64,000 nt of DNA from Bdellovibrio bacteriovorus HD100. GTDB taxonomy: Bacteria > Bdellovibrionota > Bdellovibrionia > Bdellovibrionales > Bdellovibrionaceae. Shown in pieces: positions 1,151 to 53,847 of this stretch. The translations under genes were made by a program, and so were the position numbers. Positions within the stretch are counted from its first letter, which is position 1; every line of letters begins with the position of its first letter. Location of the stretch: the NCBI RefSeq assembly GCF_000196175.1, contig NC_005363.1:1798001-1862000 (forward strand), written 5' to 3'. The notes beneath the pieces were generated by a model. The model searched no databases, had not been told where the DNA came from, and saw nothing but the letters and a program-made list of their open reading frames with translations.

Positions 1151-2047
1151 ATGACAAAAACGACACTACGTCGTGCGTTAGCCGGTGTTGCATTGGTTGC
1201 AACTGTAGGCTTCACACACCAAACAGCGACTACGGAATCTGCGACACTATGCTCCGGATTCGTTCCAGAGAACAATTTGTACATCCCAGAAGGTGTTTTC
1301 ACCGTGGGTGGTATCACAGAACAACAATTCAACCAGGTTTTGGACCGTCTTGAAAGATTGTTCGCCAAGGACGTTGAAGCGATGGGGGATCGCTTGAAAA
1401 TCAACCGTCTGTGGAGCGACGGGACTGTTAATGCTTCTGCGCAAAGATCCGGCAACACGCAAGTGTTGAACATGTACGGTGGTTTGGCTCGTCACCCGGC
1501 GACAAACATCGAAGGCTTCGCTTTGGTGGCTTGTCATGAGTTCGGTCACCACAACGGTGGCGCTCCAAAAATGCAAAGCTGGTTCGGTGGCGCCTGGGCG
1601 ACCAACGAAGGTGGCTCTGACTACTACGCTTCTTTGAAGTGTTTGCGTCGTTTCTTTGCTGAAGACGACAACGCCGCGATCCTGAAGGATCTGCAATTGG
1701 ATCCAACAGCTGAAGCCGCTTGTACGGCTCAGTTCCCGGATGAACAAGATCGCCTGATCTGCCTAAGAACTTCTTTGGCTGGTCAATCTGTGGCGAACCT
1801 GTTCCAGGCTTTACGTAAAGAAACTTCCGCTCCAACATTCGGTACGCCGGATAAGAACGTGGTTTCCCGCACAGACGACAGACACCCAGCGACTCAGTGC
1901 CGTTTGGACACTTACTTCGCAGGTATGTTGTGTGTGGCTAAAGAAAGCGAAAAGCTAAGCAATTCTGATTATAAGTCAGGTTCTTGCTATGCTCCTCGCG
2001 ATACAGCGGGTGTGCGTCCTCGTTGCTGGTTTGCTCCAACCAACTAG
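1151..2047 (+). CDS. secreted HExxH metallopeptidase-like protein
   Basis: The 298-residue product begins with a signal peptide (about residues 1-27) after a strong AAGGAGG ribosome site. It contains CHEFGHH at residues 128-134 (His129, Glu130, His133), the zinc-binding HExxH motif, and NEGGSDYYA at 152-160. In that segment Glu153 could be the third zinc ligand and Asp157 the ExxxD partner, as in gluzincin/M48-like peptidases. Several cysteines suggest disulfides in an exported protein. Codon use is rich in major codons, which hints at high expression. The gene stands alone and ends at a strong terminator. Family placement beyond a gluzincin-type fold is inference; substrate unknown. Confidence 0.75.
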   Translation: MTKTTLRRALAGVALVATVGFTHQTATTESATLCSGFVPENNLYIPEGVFTVGGITEQQFNQVLDRLERLFAKDVEAMGDRLKINRLWSDGTVNASAQRSGNTQVLNMYGGLARHPATNIEGFALVACHEFGHHNGGAPKMQSWFGGAWATNEGGSDYYASLKCLRRFFAEDDNAAILKDLQLDPTAEAACTAQFPDEQDRLICLRTSLAGQSVANLFQALRKETSAPTFGTPDKNVVSRTDDRHPATQCRLDTYFAGMLCVAKESEKLSNSDYKSGSCYAPRDTAGVRPRCWFAPTN

Positions 2048-2072
2048 GATTTTCGACATTTCCTAAAAAACC

Positions 2073-2104
2073 AAAAAGGCCGGGGACTCCCGGCCTTTTT
2101 TTTA
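2073..2104 (+). terminator. rho-independent terminator after the HExxH gene
   Basis: GGCCGGG and CCCGGCC arms flank a GACT loop, with an A-run before and nine T after. It lies 26 bases after the stop of the metallopeptidase-like gene. Confidence 0.9.
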
Positions 2105-2170
2105 TTGTGTGTCAGCACGAAGCCCTGGCCAGATTTGCGCCGTTGGTCCCTGAGGCGATAGGCTTCGTTC

Positions 2171-2905
2171 ATGTCCCGAAAAAAGCTGGTCCCGCTTCTT
2201 ATTATCTGCGTTCTTCTGTTACTGGCTTATCTCATCAAAGCTTTTGTTTTTTCCCGTGAGTTTGCGTATGCCGGCACCGTGGAGGTCACCAAGGTGGATA
2301 TTCCGGCGCGGGTGTCCTCGGTGATCTCTGATTTTCCGGTGAAAGAGGGACAGATCGTGGCCCAAGGGCAGTCGGTAGTGACGCTGGACTGTGAAGAGAT
2401 CCGTCTGGGTTATGATCTGGCCCGCAAAAACTATGACCGGGCTGTGGCACTTTATCGCAGTGGCAGTATCGCTCAGGACAGTTACGATCAGATTAAAAAT
2501 AAAAAAGACGAAATTGAAACCCGTTTCAAGTGGTGTGAAGTGACTTCCCCCATTAAAGGGACGGTGCTGACCACTTACTTTGAACCCGGGGAAATGGTTT
2601 TGCCAGGGGCAAAACTTTTGACCGTGGGGGATTTGGATGAAGTTCATGCATACTTCTATCTGCCTCATGACCGCATCGCCCTTCTTAGAATGAATCAGAA
2701 AGTCACCGCACATCTTCCAGAAATGGATGACAAGGAATTTGAAGGAGTTGTGGCCTATATCAACCCCGAGGCCGAGTTCACTCCGAAGAATGTGCAAACC
2801 CGCGATGAACGGACGCGCCTGGTGTACGCCGTGAAGATTCGTTTTGCAAACAGCGAAGGCATTCTTAAGCCCGGAATGACCCTGGAGTGGATGGCGGAGG
2901 ACTGA
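2171..2905 (+). CDS. HlyD/YhiI-type membrane fusion protein of an ABC exporter
   Basis: Periplasmic adaptor that would link an inner-membrane ABC exporter to an outer-membrane channel. It is 244 residues: N-terminal anchor at about 6-26, first half of a biotinyl-lipoyl-like domain (about 37-73), a short helical hairpin (75-120), the second lipoyl half with GTVLTTYFEPGEMVLPG, then a beta-barrel domain. The short hairpin makes it smaller than AcrA-like adaptors and close to YhiI. It is the first gene of a tightly packed operon with two ATPases and two permeases; the next start overlaps this stop. No strong ribosome site precedes the ATG. Confidence 0.9.
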   Translation: MSRKKLVPLLIICVLLLLAYLIKAFVFSREFAYAGTVEVTKVDIPARVSSVISDFPVKEGQIVAQGQSVVTLDCEEIRLGYDLARKNYDRAVALYRSGSIAQDSYDQIKNKKDEIETRFKWCEVTSPIKGTVLTTYFEPGEMVLPGAKLLTVGDLDEVHAYFYLPHDRIALLRMNQKVTAHLPEMDDKEFEGVVAYINPEAEFTPKNVQTRDERTRLVYAVKIRFANSEGILKPGMTLEWMAED

Positions 2906-3657
2906 TGTCTGGCTCCATCTCCATCGAGGTTCGGGATCTCGTTAAAAAGTTGCGCACGACAGAGGCCCTGAAGGGATTGAGCATGAATTTTTCTGCCGGG
3001 GTGATTCACGGGGTGATCGGACCGGAGGGGGCTGGAAAGACCACATTTTTGCGGCATCTTATGGGGCTTCTTAAAGCTGACGGGGGGGCGATCCGTTTCA
3101 TCAGTGAAGGAAAGAAGACCGAGTTTTCCCAATTGCGTGAACGCATTGCCTATATGCCCCAGACTCAAAGCCTTTATCCAGAGCTGAGTGTTCATGAGCA
3201 CCTGGAATTTTTCCGGACGCTATTTCGTTTGCCTGACCAGGAATACAAAACCCGCAGGGAAAAGCTTTTGCGAATGGCCCGGCTGGAAGAATTCACCGAT
3301 CGCCTGGCCTCGCAGCTTTCCGGCGGGATGTACAAAAAGCTTGGCTTGATTTGTTCTTTGCTGGCTTCTCCGCAGGTTCTGCTGCTGGATGAACCCACCA
3401 ACGGGGTTGACCCCTTAAGTCGCCGTGACTTCTGGGAGCTGTTGTATGAACTGGTCAAGGGCGAGGATGTTCTGATTCTGGTCACGACCTCGTACATGGA
3501 TGAGGCGTTGAAGTGCGAAGTGGTTCATCTTTTGTTTGATGGGAAATCCCTGCTTGAAGGACCGCCGTCTGAAATACTGCGCCAGAAAAATTGCCGCACA
3601 TTTGATGAGGTCTTTTTGCAATACGATGCCCAGAGTGATCTTCAGGAGGCTCTGTGA
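2905..3657 (+). CDS. ABC transporter ATP-binding protein (first of two)
   Basis: A 250-residue nucleotide-binding subunit. I chose the ATG at 2905 (TGATG overlap with the upstream stop, GGCGGAGG just before it) over an in-frame GTG at 2887. Walker A is GPEGAGKTT (39-47), the signature LSGG is at 138-141 and Walker B LLLDEP at 159-164. The switch position, normally His, reads TTSYMDEA, so residue 196 is Ser. This domain may therefore hydrolyse ATP poorly and act as the degenerate half of a heterodimer. It pairs with the next gene and corresponds to the N-terminal half of an RbbA-like fused ATPase. Confidence 0.92.
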   Translation: MSGSISIEVRDLVKKLRTTEALKGLSMNFSAGVIHGVIGPEGAGKTTFLRHLMGLLKADGGAIRFISEGKKTEFSQLRERIAYMPQTQSLYPELSVHEHLEFFRTLFRLPDQEYKTRREKLLRMARLEEFTDRLASQLSGGMYKKLGLICSLLASPQVLLLDEPTNGVDPLSRRDFWELLYELVKGEDVLILVTTSYMDEALKCEVVHLLFDGKSLLEGPPSEILRQKNCRTFDEVFLQYDAQSDLQEAL

Positions 3658-48064: not shown

Positions 48065-48712
48065 TTAGTTGTAGCCGTTTTGATAGGCCATTTCATAGTT
48101 CGGGAAGAAGACTCGTTTCCAGACGGGGATCTTGTTGATCTCTTCTGGTGGGACGACCTTTTTTAGTTCCAGATCGCCGACTGGATTTCTGCCCACTTGC
48201 TTTTGCACACGCATGCGGAACTGATAAGGCTCTTGGGTGTCGCGATAGTCGTTCGAGAAGATGCCCAGACGGTTGTCGTAAGCTTCTTTGGAAGCTTTGC
48301 TGTAATCACTCACCACACGTTTTTCAAACGGGTAGATGAAGTAAATCATACCCCAGCCGTTTTTAAGCATTTCGATATTAAGTTCAGTTTTACCATTCAG
48401 CAAGCGACCCAGGATGCGCCCGTGTTTGTCGATCTGGCTGTCTTCGCTTAAGGTGATGATGCCGTCGGCCGGAATCAGGGATCGCAGGAAATCGCGCGCG
48501 GCCAGAGCTACATCGCCTTGGGTTTCTTTCATAAAGTCCACTTCCGGAGTGTCCACGCCCATCAAGCGCACTTTAACTCGGGTGTTGCTTGAAACATCCA
48601 CCGCTGTCAGAGTGTCGCCGTCATGGACACTCAGAACTTTAATGCGTGTGCCTTGGGCCCAAAGAAGAGAAGGAAGAAGCAGGACAATGAAAAGAACTGA
48701 AAGGTTTTTCAT
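48065..48712 (-). CDS. secreted thermonuclease-type nuclease
   Basis: A 215-residue exported nuclease with a signal peptide (about 1-19, WAQ). The SNase domain keeps the three active-site positions of staphylococcal nuclease: the Arg and Glu in VRLMGVDTPEV and the Arg in KHGRILGRL. A C-terminal extension of about 60 residues is unassigned. For a predator a secreted nuclease fits prey nucleic-acid digestion (inference). Confidence 0.92.
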   Translation of the reverse strand: MKNLSVLFIVLLLPSLLWAQGTRIKVLSVHDGDTLTAVDVSSNTRVKVRLMGVDTPEVDFMKETQGDVALAARDFLRSLIPADGIITLSEDSQIDKHGRILGRLLNGKTELNIEMLKNGWGMIYFIYPFEKRVVSDYSKASKEAYDNRLGIFSNDYRDTQEPYQFRMRVQKQVGRNPVGDLELKKVVPPEEINKIPVWKRVFFPNYEMAYQNGYN

Positions 48713-48801: not shown

Positions 48802-49299
48802 TTATCTTGTTCCTGAGCCGTTTTTAGAGGCTGCCGCTGGAGGATGGAACTTATTTCCAATTCCGTGGCTCTTCAGGTTGTTGACGGTTTCTTTGCACTC
48901 TGAACGAGCCCCGCGGTGACGCCAGGACAGTTGGGCTGATCCTTTGGCATCTGGATGAGCATCAACAAACAGTTCTACGCGACGGCGCAGGTTGCGATGA
49001 AAAAGCTTTTCCTGAGGCGAGCATCCTGCCGGTGTCATGCTGAAGATGATCCTTGCGATGCGACTGCGAGAGGCATCCTGAACCGTTTCAACGGCCATCG
49101 GGCACACCACGGTTTCAGATTCAGACTTGATGGTGATTGTGGCGTGGTCCAGGTCCTCGATATTAATTCCTGCAGAAAGGTTTTTAGCTTGCAGCCACTC
49201 GTCCTGCAGCTGACAGGAATACATCAGTTTTTTGCTCTGAGCTTCAGCGGTAAAAATGAATCCGAAAACGAACGTGGCCATCAGAATGGAGCGGATCAT
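48802..49299 (-). CDS. small secreted protein coupled to the PAD-like gene
   Basis: A 165-residue exported protein from the ATG at 49299, in an ATGA overlap with the stop of the PAD-like gene and with GGAGGC inside that gene. Signal peptide about 1-21 (AEA). The mature part has four cysteines (YSCQL, VCPMA, GCSPQ, SECKE) and a basic C-terminus. No family recognised. Strict coupling suggests it acts together with the deiminase-like enzyme, e.g. as partner or regulator. Confidence 0.75.
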   Translation of the reverse strand: MIRSILMATFVFGFIFTAEAQSKKLMYSCQLQDEWLQAKNLSAGINIEDLDHATITIKSESETVVCPMAVETVQDASRSRIARIIFSMTPAGCSPQEKLFHRNLRRRVELFVDAHPDAKGSAQLSWRHRGARSECKETVNNLKSHGIGNKFHPPAAASKNGSGTR

Positions 49300-50975
49300 T
49301 TGGTGCCTCCTTGAGGGCGGCAATAGCGCATGGTGTGGCTGGAACAGTGCAGATTTCCATTCATGGAATGGGCAAAATGCGTGTCGATATAGTCAGTTTT
49401 AAGACCGAGACCTTTGATCGACGAATCGATCTCCGCTTTAAATGCCGGGTTTACAGGTTCCGGCAAAATGAAGGTGTCTTCCACAATATCCCCATTGGTG
49501 GGGTTGGGGAAAATAGAGTCCGCGGATCCATTCACATATTTCGGCGTATTGCTGTCATAGTCCATCTCCCCAATGAAAAGATCGGGAAGCTCCACGGTTT
49601 TGGGGCTGCATTGCGGATAGGATTTTTTAACCTTTGCCAGCAGTTCTTTTTTGAATTTCTGAGTCGCTTCTTCAATGGAAGCATTGAATTCTTTAAATTC
49701 AAAATCCTCTTCGATCAGGTCGGCCAGGTCCTTGTTGGTCATATTATAGCAGTCCATGGCATCCTGGATGCTGGAAGAACTCTTGATCATCCCGGATTGG
49801 CGCATCAGCGCACGGCGACGGTTTAGGCGAGCGTATTTTTCTTCACGGCGGCTGCGCTCCAGGGCAGGATCGTCTATGCCACCTTCAGAAATTCTTTCCA
49901 GATATTCCTGCATACGACGGGATTCAGCATCTTTTAGTGGTTGAACCGTGGCACCAGCAGAAACGGGTGGCAGAATGATTTCAAACAAGAACTGACTGAC
50001 TCCGCGGGAACGTTTTTCGCGGGATTTTTCCGGATTGCCACCATTGTTTTTCAGGGCTTTGCTGTAAGAAAATTCCTGACAAATATAGGTGTACGGGGTC
50101 TGACTCATTCGCGCCAGGGCTTCATCCGGAGTCAGGTGCGAAAAATCAAAGGCTCGGCCTTGCGGGTTTTTCTTAAGCAGGTCCAGTCCCTTTTTGGGGC
50201 TGGCAAAGGCCAGACTGAAATCGCAAGGGGCTTTTTGTGTTGGATCTTTCAGGGTTTTGAAGAACTCATCAGTGTGCCCGACACTTAAAAAATCAGACGG
50301 AGTCAGTACGGCCATGGCGGGGTTTTCGCAAGTGACTTTGGCGTATCTGTCCCATTCGTCACCCTCGAAGTGATCAGATCCAATCAGGCAAAGTCCATTG
50401 ACGGCTTCGATATTGCCGCCACTGTGCCCGGATTTGTACGGGTTGTTGGTCAGCTTTTGCCCCTCCTGAAAAGAGCAATCCTTGCTGGATTGTTTTATCA
50501 AGTCAGCAAAGGCGTTGCCGTGGCGGCCATAGCCTTGGACTTCGCGCAAGACGGGCTTTCCGGTCTTGGCATCAAAGAAGCTTTCAAAGTAATCCTGCTG
50601 CCAGTTCCAGCGACTGTTGGTTTTCACGCGGCTCAGGCCGGAAATCCATTGCTGGGCGGTGGCCTGATTCGGAGCCTGTTTTTTGATCTCCCGCACGACT
50701 TCATCCCAGGTTTCATCAGTCACGGCCAGAAAGAATTGCGGTGGCTTTTGAGATTGGGCTTTTAAAACTTTGGTGACGTATTCTTTGACGTAGCGGGGGC
50801 CACCCATATCGTCAGACACGGTGGCGGCCATTATCGGAAAATTTTCAGAAAGCAGTTTGCTGCCGCCAGCAGGACACAGTGGAACATCGGCGGCCATCGG
50901 GTTGTGCTGGGAGCAGGAATTTGCAGAAGCCTCAGTCAGAAAGAAACTCAGGAGGATCTGCAGGAAAATGGTCAT
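49296..50975 (-). CDS. secreted peptidylarginine-deiminase-like (PAD) enzyme
   Basis: A 559-residue exported protein (signal peptide about 1-19) with the PAD_C catalytic pattern: Asp128 in NWQQDYFESFF (PAD4 Asp350 in IQDEMEIGY), GHSGGNIE at 183-190 (PAD FGGNLE), His234/Asp236 in VGHTDEF (PAD VGHVDEF), and Cys544 in NGNLHCSSHTMR (PAD HGEVHCGTN). All four catalytic residues and the order agree. Residues about 260-465 form an insertion rich in charged helices, absent from the short PAD core. PADs convert peptidyl-arginine to citrulline; activity here is inferred. The downstream secreted gene overlaps its stop. Confidence 0.75.
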   Translation of the reverse strand: MTIFLQILLSFFLTEASANSCSQHNPMAADVPLCPAGGSKLLSENFPIMAATVSDDMGGPRYVKEYVTKVLKAQSQKPPQFFLAVTDETWDEVVREIKKQAPNQATAQQWISGLSRVKTNSRWNWQQDYFESFFDAKTGKPVLREVQGYGRHGNAFADLIKQSSKDCSFQEGQKLTNNPYKSGHSGGNIEAVNGLCLIGSDHFEGDEWDRYAKVTCENPAMAVLTPSDFLSVGHTDEFFKTLKDPTQKAPCDFSLAFASPKKGLDLLKKNPQGRAFDFSHLTPDEALARMSQTPYTYICQEFSYSKALKNNGGNPEKSREKRSRGVSQFLFEIILPPVSAGATVQPLKDAESRRMQEYLERISEGGIDDPALERSRREEKYARLNRRRALMRQSGMIKSSSSIQDAMDCYNMTNKDLADLIEEDFEFKEFNASIEEATQKFKKELLAKVKKSYPQCSPKTVELPDLFIGEMDYDSNTPKYVNGSADSIFPNPTNGDIVEDTFILPEPVNPAFKAEIDSSIKGLGLKTDYIDTHFAHSMNGNLHCSSHTMRYCRPQGGTK

Positions 50976-50977
50976 GA

Positions 50978-52432
50978 TTATGCCGCCTGCAGACCTTTTG
51001 TGAATTCACCGGAAAGCTTTTCAGCCAGAGTCAAAGAGACCTTGTTGTAAGCCGCTTTTTCTGCAAAGCCCATCAGCATGCCCACCAGTTTCTCATTGAT
51101 AATGATGGGAGTGACAGTCACGTGATCGGGGATGCGACCCTGATTCCAGCCATCAAAGAACTTCTCGTTGATCGCATTCAGGGAGATATAGCCGTGATAC
51201 GGTTTTTGAGTTGTCGCCACGATATTGAAAATACTTGGAGTTTGCAGTGGGAAGCGCATGGAAGTGTCCTTCATGCCCTGGAAATTTTCATCCCAGGCAA
51301 AGGCGGTCATCTGCGTTTCCTGTTCGTCCAAAGTCAGGATCATGGACTTTTCAAAGTGCACTTTCATCTGGCTTAAGATCGTTTTGATTTTTTCATTCAG
51401 CAAAGCGGCATTTTTCTTTTTGATTTTTTCCAAAGCAAAATGACCACTGGCCACCGGATTGATGGTTGGCTTGGCCACACCCGCCGGACGTGGAGTGATT
51501 GCAATGGGTTTGTTGCTGAAGCTGTCCTCAAATGGCGGTGGCATTTCAGCTTTAGGCGGAGGCGGTGGAGGCGTTGCGCGTTTTGGCGCAGAGCTTTCCA
51601 CGGCGGTCGCCGCAACGACTGGCGCTGATTCCGTCGGTACTGTCGCAGCAGGCGCCGGCGTTAGCGGAGTCAGCGGAGACAGAGGAGAGATCACAGTTTT
51701 AAGCTCAGTCTCGGGAGTTTCAGAGGAAACGGCCACCGGCTCAAGAACCGGAGCAACTTGCGCAGGTGCTTCCGCGGATGGACTCAAAGCCTCAAGACGA
51801 ATCACGGTCGGACCGTCAAACAGGCCATCGAGTTTTTCGCCACCAGTTTCGCCCAATTGAAGCTCATCCTCACTTAGAGGCTGGAATTCCGGAGCTGCTT
51901 TGGAGTCGGTTTTTACGCCCAGATCCTCGAAAGAGAAGCTGTCGGAAGCTTGTTTGGTCGTGGTAACAACGGAAAGATCGATACCCTCTGGGGCTTCTTC
52001 GGCCACCGGGGTTGCCGCAGGGGCTTGGTGTCTTTCCGGGTGCAGCAGGTTCCAGGTGGCTTCCAGATTTTCATAGGTCGCCAGAACCAGAATACTGGAA
52101 GGCATGGAAGGAAAATCCTGCGGCGGCTGAAGACATGCTACGATGAGGGATCCATCCCACTCCGCCACAGGCAGACACTCCGCAGACCACGGATAATGGG
52201 TCGCCCACTTCGCGAACATTTCCTGGGACACGGGAGTTTCTGTAAAAAATCGTGACTGAAGCAAAGGCAGTTTATGGTGAGTCATTGCCCAACGAAGATA
52301 GTCTTCAGAGCTCAGGCGTTGCTCCTTGATTGCGTAAGCCAAGAGGCTCAGAGGCGTAGCGCTTTGTTCAAAGGCTTCGGTAAGTCCTTGAAGTTGCTCT
52401 TTAAAATGTTCAAACCATAAATGATGACTCAT
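50978..52432 (-). CDS. two-domain cytoplasmic protein with Pro/Ala linker
   Basis: A 484-residue protein from the ATG at 52432; the frame continues open to 52609 without a ribosome site. The N-terminal 130 residues (e.g. AIKEQRLSSEDYLRWAMTHH, then LPVAEWDGSLIVACLQPP) resemble the MshEN/GspE N-terminal type fold seen in secretion ATPases. A long Ala/Pro/Thr/Glu linker (about 145-330, including TPPPPPPKAEMPP) leads to a C-terminal 130-residue domain with GAF-like features (TVTPIIINEKLVGMLMGFAE). No ATPase domain. Possible regulator of secretion or motility; inference. Confidence 0.65.
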   Translation of the reverse strand: MSHHLWFEHFKEQLQGLTEAFEQSATPLSLLAYAIKEQRLSSEDYLRWAMTHHKLPLLQSRFFTETPVSQEMFAKWATHYPWSAECLPVAEWDGSLIVACLQPPQDFPSMPSSILVLATYENLEATWNLLHPERHQAPAATPVAEEAPEGIDLSVVTTTKQASDSFSFEDLGVKTDSKAAPEFQPLSEDELQLGETGGEKLDGLFDGPTVIRLEALSPSAEAPAQVAPVLEPVAVSSETPETELKTVISPLSPLTPLTPAPAATVPTESAPVVAATAVESSAPKRATPPPPPPKAEMPPPFEDSFSNKPIAITPRPAGVAKPTINPVASGHFALEKIKKKNAALLNEKIKTILSQMKVHFEKSMILTLDEQETQMTAFAWDENFQGMKDTSMRFPLQTPSIFNIVATTQKPYHGYISLNAINEKFFDGWNQGRIPDHVTVTPIIINEKLVGMLMGFAEKAAYNKVSLTLAEKLSGEFTKGLQAA

Positions 52433-52641
52433 CCCTGTGTTTATCGGAATTCCTGTTAAAAACCTGAGTGAAAACTGAGGTCTAGTCCAGTTAAGCCCCG
52501 AAAAATCCTCGGTCGGCCCGGAAAACAGGCAGAATCGGGGTGTAGAAATTTCCCGATCTGTTAACGCAGTGGACACCCTAAAAGGGCAAATTATCTTAGA
52601 GGTTCTCAATACTTAAGAACTGTGATAGGTTCCGGCAGCTT

Positions 52642-53847
52642 ATGATACAGACCAAGGTCCTTCATTATTTCGATCACAACGCCACGACTCCGGCGTGCAA
52701 AGAGGTTTTGGAATCTCTGCCCGAGTTCGCGCAAGCTTGGGGGAACCCAAGTTCCATCCATTGGGGTGGTCGGCAGCCGAAGAATATTCTGCGTGACGCG
52801 CGCAAGGCTGTGGCAGAAATGGTGAATGCAAGTCCGCTGGAAATCATTTTCACTTCCGGTGGCAGTGAAGCCAACAACACCGTTTTGAAAGGTCTGCTGG
52901 AATACTACCAGACAGCACAGTTCCTGACTCCGGAACAGCGCAAACGCACTCACTTCATGAGTTCTGAAGTGGAGCACCCAAGCATCATGAAAACCATGCA
53001 GCACCTGAAAGATCTGGGCGCACGCGTGGATTTCATTCCGGTGAATCGTCAGGGGCAGATCGATCTGAAATTCTATGAAGAACATCTGAGCGAAGAGACC
53101 GCCCTGGTGTCCGTGATGTTTGCCAATAACGAAACCGGCACATTGTTCCCGATCAAAGAGATGGCCGAGATGGCACATAAAAAAGGCGCGCTCTTCCACA
53201 CGGATGCAGTTCAGGCCTTCGGTAAAGTGCCGGTGAACCTGAAAGAACTGAATGTCGACTTCGCTTCTTTCTCTGGTCATAAATTCTATTCCGTCAAAGG
53301 AACTGGGGTTTTGTATGCGAAGAAGGGTAACAACGTCACACCTTTGATTCACGGTGGAGCGCAGGAAAGACATCGTCGTGGTGGCACTGAAAACACACTG
53401 GGCATTGGTGCTCTGGGTGTGGTGGCCAAACGTGCGCCGATGATTGCGGAAAAAGCCAAAGCCTTGGCTGTTCTTCGCGATCACATGGAAGCGCGCATTC
53501 TTTCTGAAATTTCCGAAGTGACGGTGACTGCCGGGGAAACTCCGCGTTTGCCGAACACAAGTTCATTGGTACTGAAGGGGGCTGACGGGGAAACCATGTT
53601 GATGTCTTTGGATATCAAGGGCTATGCGGTTTCCACCGGGGCTGCTTGTTCTTCCGGGAATCCCGAGCCAAGCCCGGTGCTTCTGGCCATGGGTCTGACC
53701 CGCGATGAAGCGCAGAACAGCCTGCGTGTCAGTCTTGGCTGGGACAGCACTCTGGAGCAGGTGGATTCGTTTGTAGATACATTGAAAACAGTAGTGGATC
53801 GCTTGCGATCCTTGAACGACGACAAAGGAGAGACTTGTCATGTCTAA
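52642..53847 (+). CDS. cysteine desulfurase (NifS/IscS type)
   Basis: Pyridoxal-phosphate enzyme that takes sulfur from cysteine and passes it as persulfide. 401 residues; PLP lysine in [26 protein letters not shown] and catalytic Cys336 in [13 protein letters not shown]. It overlaps mnmA by 8 bases, so its sulfur most likely goes to tRNA 2-thiouridine; no iron-sulfur scaffold gene is adjacent. It diverges from the gene at 50978; the 209-base gap should hold both promoters. Confidence 0.95.

Follow-up and report, generated by a model that had tools for sequence, protein, structure and literature searches.

Does the exported enzyme of the peptidylarginine deiminase (PAD) type encoded by the predator Bdellovibrio bacteriovorus HD100 have the chemistry of a deiminase, and does it act alone? 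An earlier note on the window (the whole 64,000-nucleotide stretch of HD100 DNA analysed here) had treated it as a lone enzyme, missing a small partner gene as well as the neighbouring genes Bd1937 and Bd1934. The locus is instead a two-gene module in a predation-linked cluster.

A two-gene module in a predation-linked cluster

The cluster comprises the following genes:

48065..48712, minus strand: exported SNase-type nuclease Bd1934, placed by two exact primer matches
48802..49299, minus strand: PAD partner, 165 aa, exported, with cysteines 29, 66, 93 and 135; Bd1935 by gene count
49296..50975, minus strand: exported PAD-type (PF03068) predicted deiminase, 559 aa; Bd1936 by gene count
50978..52609, minus strand: upstream gene, numbered Bd1937 by the gene count; 2 nt separate its stop codon from the PAD start
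52642-53847: cysteine desulphurase that fits Bd1938 (Aminotran_5 match; PMC2797640)

Since the interval from Bd1934 to Bd1938 spans three genes, we infer the numbers Bd1935 (partner), Bd1936 (PAD) and Bd1937 (upstream gene) from the gene count between these two anchors. The primers published for Bd1934 (PMC3593177) match exactly at 48265-48284 and 48180-48199, and the expression of this nuclease is induced by prey contact, with an early peak (PMC3593177, PMC7925074). At the other end, Bd1937, for which a later start near 52432 (MSHH...) agrees better with its homologues, is reported to be a partner of RomR at the invasive pole (PMC11025332); Tn-seq is reported to show that predation requires it, and it has been described as putatively binding c-di-GMP (PMC6561027). 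A transposon inserted in Bd1937 could have polar effects on the PAD and its partner. Bd1937 has been called exclusive to B. bacteriovorus (PMC11025332); homologues occur here in all 24 Bdellovibrio genomes and in 58 of the 66 genomes of the family.

The PAD gene (49296-50975) starts with ATG, and the N-terminus of its product, MTIFLQILLSFFLTEASA followed by NS, reads by eye as a Sec signal peptide, in agreement with the earlier note. The partner adjoins the 3' end of the PAD gene through an ATGA overlap (...AAATGATCC...) in which its ATG occupies 49299-49297 and the PAD stop TGA 49298-49296; the automatic open reading frame of the partner runs to 49323, and we adopted the start at 49299, which overlaps the PAD stop. 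Bd1935 also carries an apparent signal peptide, judged by eye, and has no Pfam, NCBIfam, PHROGs or PDB sequence match. Both genes have the GC content of the window. No relative was found among viral contigs or plasmids, and we do not argue for an origin in a mobile element. The main texts of the open-access literature, taken without supplementary tables, contained no study of Bd1935 or Bd1936.

A PAD-type enzyme with an intact catalytic set

The claim of an exported PAD with a full catalytic set is borne out by an HMM search, in which Bd1936 matches PF03068 at 44.3 bits (E=1.5e-11, Pfam cut-off 25), and by the presence, in order, of D128, H234, D236 and C544. Among the full-length homologues of the order, D128 is kept in 28/28 and H234, D236 and C544 in 27/28, while W125, D128, G187, N188 and E237 are invariant in all 28. 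PF03068 is the sole Pfam family detected in Bd1936 even at E<=10, a threshold at which PAD_C alone appears and neither PAD_M nor PAD_N does; the protein has no further Pfam or NCBIfam match. It is also the only PF03068 protein of the complete HD100 genome (3,782,950 bases, one contig), and the family is absent from 14 of 14 control genomes. Bd1936 evolves under purifying selection (dN/dS 0.04-0.09). Its AlphaFold model, computed from an input of three sequences, has a pLDDT of 41 and was set aside. The single exception to the conservation of H234, D236 and C544 is the PAD homologue of genome G106 (L073, 6251-7762), which retains WVQD and GGN and has M, N, Q and S at the His, Asp, His and Cys places; judging from its sequence, it is likely a pseudoenzyme.

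In a PDB sequence search, a family profile hits human PAD4 (E=6.4e-26); the alignment pairs GHTDEF with GHVDEF of PAD4 and NLHCSS with its HC motif, which gives the His/Asp pair and the nucleophilic Cys. Human PAD1-4 and PAD6 are matched as well, with the His-x-Asp-Glu and His-Cys motifs aligned, and protein-arginine deiminases are the only solved structures that the profile matches. Deiminase catalysis by Bd1936 is a well-supported prediction, because the protein belongs to the PAD family and possesses its catalytic residues. One might still imagine a PAD-like enzyme that acts for nutrition on free arginine, agmatine or small guanidines, proteins not being its substrate: the guanidine-modifying superfamily includes such enzymes (PMC8826395), and the predator digests prey peptides. 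We consider this very unlikely, given that the best and only Pfam match is to the protein-arginine deiminase family, that the solved structures matched are exclusively of this kind, and that a dedicated exported partner would be left without a reason.

The stretches WQQDYFE and GGNIE match PAD4 stretches, the first of them only weakly aligned by the HMM, that we take to contain D350 together with the Ca1 ligands Q349, E353 and E411. By motif position, the HMM alignment being weak there, the putative Ca1 ligands of Bd1936 are Q127, E131 and E190. In the main clade described below, all 31 PADs that have a partner show WQQD, together with E/D/Q at 131 and E/D at 190. Calcium site 1 is reported to be conserved in all PADs, and sites 1 and 3 are both described as conserved; bacterial PADs, except the cyanobacterial ones nearest to those of animals, have PAD_C alone annotated (Cummings et al., PMC8826395).

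The earlier note had also placed an insertion at residues 260-465. An insertion does exist and is smaller, about 125 residues (about 283-408), with PAD homology reaching to ~270 and resuming from ~411. It varies between clades and is the fastest-evolving segment of Bd1936 outside the signal peptide. Insertion length and presence of the partner are not strictly linked, since G014, G061 and G062 have insertions and no partner.

A variable site shared by PAD and partner

The slot between Bd1937 and TsaE/PdxJ contains both the PAD and the partner in 6 of the 24 Bdellovibrio genomes and neither in the other 18. As the locus thus holds both or neither in 24/24 genomes, PAD and partner come and go as one unit in Bdellovibrio, and since most species of the genus are devoid of it, predation in general can do without the module. 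Bd1937 and the nuclease Bd1934 enclose a small variable site, which measures only about 150-175 bases in G010 and G016. By inspection, slots without a PAD (L163, L164, L165, L166, L168) are either empty or contain unrelated genes, for an isochorismatase-like hydrolase, an acetyltransferase-like protein or a phosphodiesterase-like lipoprotein. One further genome, G014, has a PAD at another locus, without partner and with two Ca1 positions altered.

These data bear on the possibility that the PAD modifies the predator's own pole or surface proteins (e.g. adhesins), the partner confining it to particular sites, and is no weapon against prey. Its position 2 nt after Bd1937, a RomR-associated protein of the invasive pole of attack-phase cells, is in line with this, and so is a related clade of PADs whose N-terminal anchors or lipoprotein signals, read by eye, would suit an action on the own envelope. 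However, the gene that follows downstream encodes an exported nuclease induced by prey, and the occupation of the variable slot by unrelated genes in other species means that the link with Bd1937 may be positional only. A plain PAD-Bd1937 association is likewise weakened by the presence of Bd1937 in 24/24 Bdellovibrio genomes and of the PAD at the locus in 6. We regard self-modification as unlikely.

Recurrent partners across the order and the phylum

Iterated searches found the partner beside 12 PADs of the order, and inspection added two divergent cases. All four partner cysteines are kept in 16/16 aligned members. On the PAD tree of the order the partner marks one clade, being present in 14/15 rows within it and 0/13 outside. 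A held-out homologue, G122, has the partner adjoining the PAD on the upstream side; with G122 added, the partner label needs two changes on the tree, and 0 of 500 shuffles were as low. The partner of G311 is also upstream of its PAD and overlaps it.

The notion that bacterial PADs are rare does not hold for this phylum, as 61 of 369 Bdellovibrionota genomes, many of them incomplete assemblies, encode PF03068. In the flanks of 40 further PAD places many small exported genes adjoin the PAD, often with the same overlap. By a crude automatic count, a small exported open reading frame adjoins 35/69 PADs versus 15/173 control long open reading frames (p=4e-12), a count that overlooks the two tandem PAD-partner pairs of G089. 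In that genome (L068, 1513-6311) two PADs lie in tandem, each followed downstream by its own divergent partner. Profile comparison links several adjacent subfamilies to the HD100 partner (B8 at 95.7%, B1 at 90.6%, B7 at 80.8% and B9 at 52%, with column-shuffled controls at <=7.4%) and connects B4 and B5 to it through B1; for B2, B3, B6 and B10 it revealed no homology.

In a quick tree of 62 rows, a fully supported clade covering two classes of Bdellovibrionota has an adjoining partner in 31/37 rows, 26 of these partners being recognised by sequence homology and 5 by position only. A clade of 12 short PADs, many of which begin with a membrane anchor or lipoprotein signal (by eye), has a partner in none. 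Partner detection was seeded from HD100, such that very divergent partners may escape and these absence counts are upper bounds; a partner match in G066 (E=3e-4) was left out of the counts. Metal ligands are degraded in 3 of the 6 partner losses versus 0/31 PADs with a partner (p=0.003, phylogeny ignored), and G061 and G062 have intact PADs and no partner. Elsewhere, the PAD homologue of G040 (L057, G040:C85, about 2046-3244) contains several in-frame stops and is likely a pseudogene, and G204 has several PF03068 proteins on different contigs (L221, L222, L223).

The role of the partner

Bd1935 is a previously unclassified exported protein that, to judge from the genes, probably controls or neutralises the PAD. 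Its model (pLDDT 64) resembles small beta-barrels; Foldseek gave no match at E<=0.001 and we do not claim this fold. In 13/13 pairs the partner has diverged faster than its PAD. A homologue of the partner also occurs as an orphan, beside an unrelated upstream gene and with no adjoining PAD, in G078 (L128, G078:C135, 1086-1589), an assembly that is 84% complete.

We favour an inhibitor because of the gene order, the faster divergence, the G078 orphan, the loss of the partner together with degraded ligands, and the precedent of Bd3460, which inhibits Bdellovibrio's own endopeptidases as self-protection (PMC4686830). A real rival is that the partner is a periplasmic chaperone, a folding factor or an obligate subunit required for folding, activity or outer-membrane crossing of the PAD. 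The same coupling and co-inheritance would be expected of it, a translational overlap is suited to the assembly of a complex, and the partner-bearing PADs of the order have long, fast-evolving insertions, with 116-182 residues between two motifs, which a chaperone of their own might assist. Against this role speak the partnerless PADs of G061 and G062, which have a comparable insertion of 121 residues and an unimpaired site, the orphan in G078, and the faster divergence of the partner; we find it somewhat unlikely. Nevertheless, a chaperone or subunit might also diverge faster than its enzyme and be lost along with the decay of that enzyme. The inhibitor must in addition contend with the partnerless PADs of G061, G062 and the short membrane or lipoprotein clade, with the lack of support for homology in subfamilies B2, B3, B6 and B10 and an uncertain fold (pLDDT 64), with the incompleteness of the assembly that yielded the orphan, and with the many Bdellovibrio species devoid of the module.

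A possible mode of action

In the model to which we give about even chances, an exported deiminase is activated by Ca2+, modifies prey or envelope proteins and is restrained in its producer by the partner. The PAD encoded by the first gene would be exported, would probably be activated by calcium and would turn arginines in proteins of the prey or the envelope into citrulline; Asp128 and Asp236 would grip the guanidinium, Cys544 would attack it and His234 would help, in a pocket ordered by one Ca2+ site (Q127/E131/E190). Because the cytoplasm is poor in Ca2+, the enzyme would be off there and would switch on after export, by whatever route it may be secreted, to a Ca2+-rich space. The second gene would encode a small disulfide-bonded exported protein that may bind the PAD directly and keep it inactive in the predator's own periplasm, thereby providing self-protection. 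More tentatively, and short of an even chance, the module may represent a conserved citrullination weapon of the Bdellovibrionota, in which a Ca2+-triggered exported PAD alters arginines of prey proteins and a new family of four-cysteine inhibitors confers immunity.

Comparison with known systems

Bd1936 shares with the animal, cyanobacterial, fungal and actinobacterial PADI/PAD enzymes the PAD_C domain, the Asp/His/Asp/Cys set and a Ca1-type ligand motif. Animal enzymes and those of cyanobacterial clade Ai have PAD_M (and PAD_N), whereas PAD_C only was detected in Bd1936, which differs further in having an export signal, an insertion of ~125 residues and additional conserved cysteines, and in being encoded together with a partner. 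Porphyromonas gingivalis PPAD is, as predicted for Bd1936, an exported bacterial enzyme that citrullinates proteins, but it belongs to a different pentein family as an extended agmatine deiminase (PMC8826395), and Bd1936 has no such match in Pfam or NCBIfam. Bd3460 with Bd3459/Bd0816 offers an analogy in the way of working, an exported enzyme being combined with a protein that protects the predator; that system involves an ankyrin fold, peptidoglycan endopeptidases and unrelated sequences, and binding was shown for Bd3460, whereas here the likeness comes from the genes. As in effector-immunity pairs, the two genes are adjacent and coupled, and the partner is small, exported, co-inherited, fast-evolving and occasionally orphan; this resemblance, again read from the genes, concerns a protein that matches no known immunity family.

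Significance

Little is understood of what PADs do in bacteria. Bd1936 is an example from a predator that is amenable to genetics; its gene cluster is connected with prey invasion, and the dedicated partner encoded beside it recurs among relatives and represents a family not described before. If this partner inhibits the enzyme, it would be a naturally occurring protein scaffold for the inhibition of an enzyme of the PAD type, and predatory bacteria would have a new means of protecting themselves. Should the module be a weapon, it would combine a PAD with an inhibitor protein of its own and bring citrullination into inter-bacterial killing.
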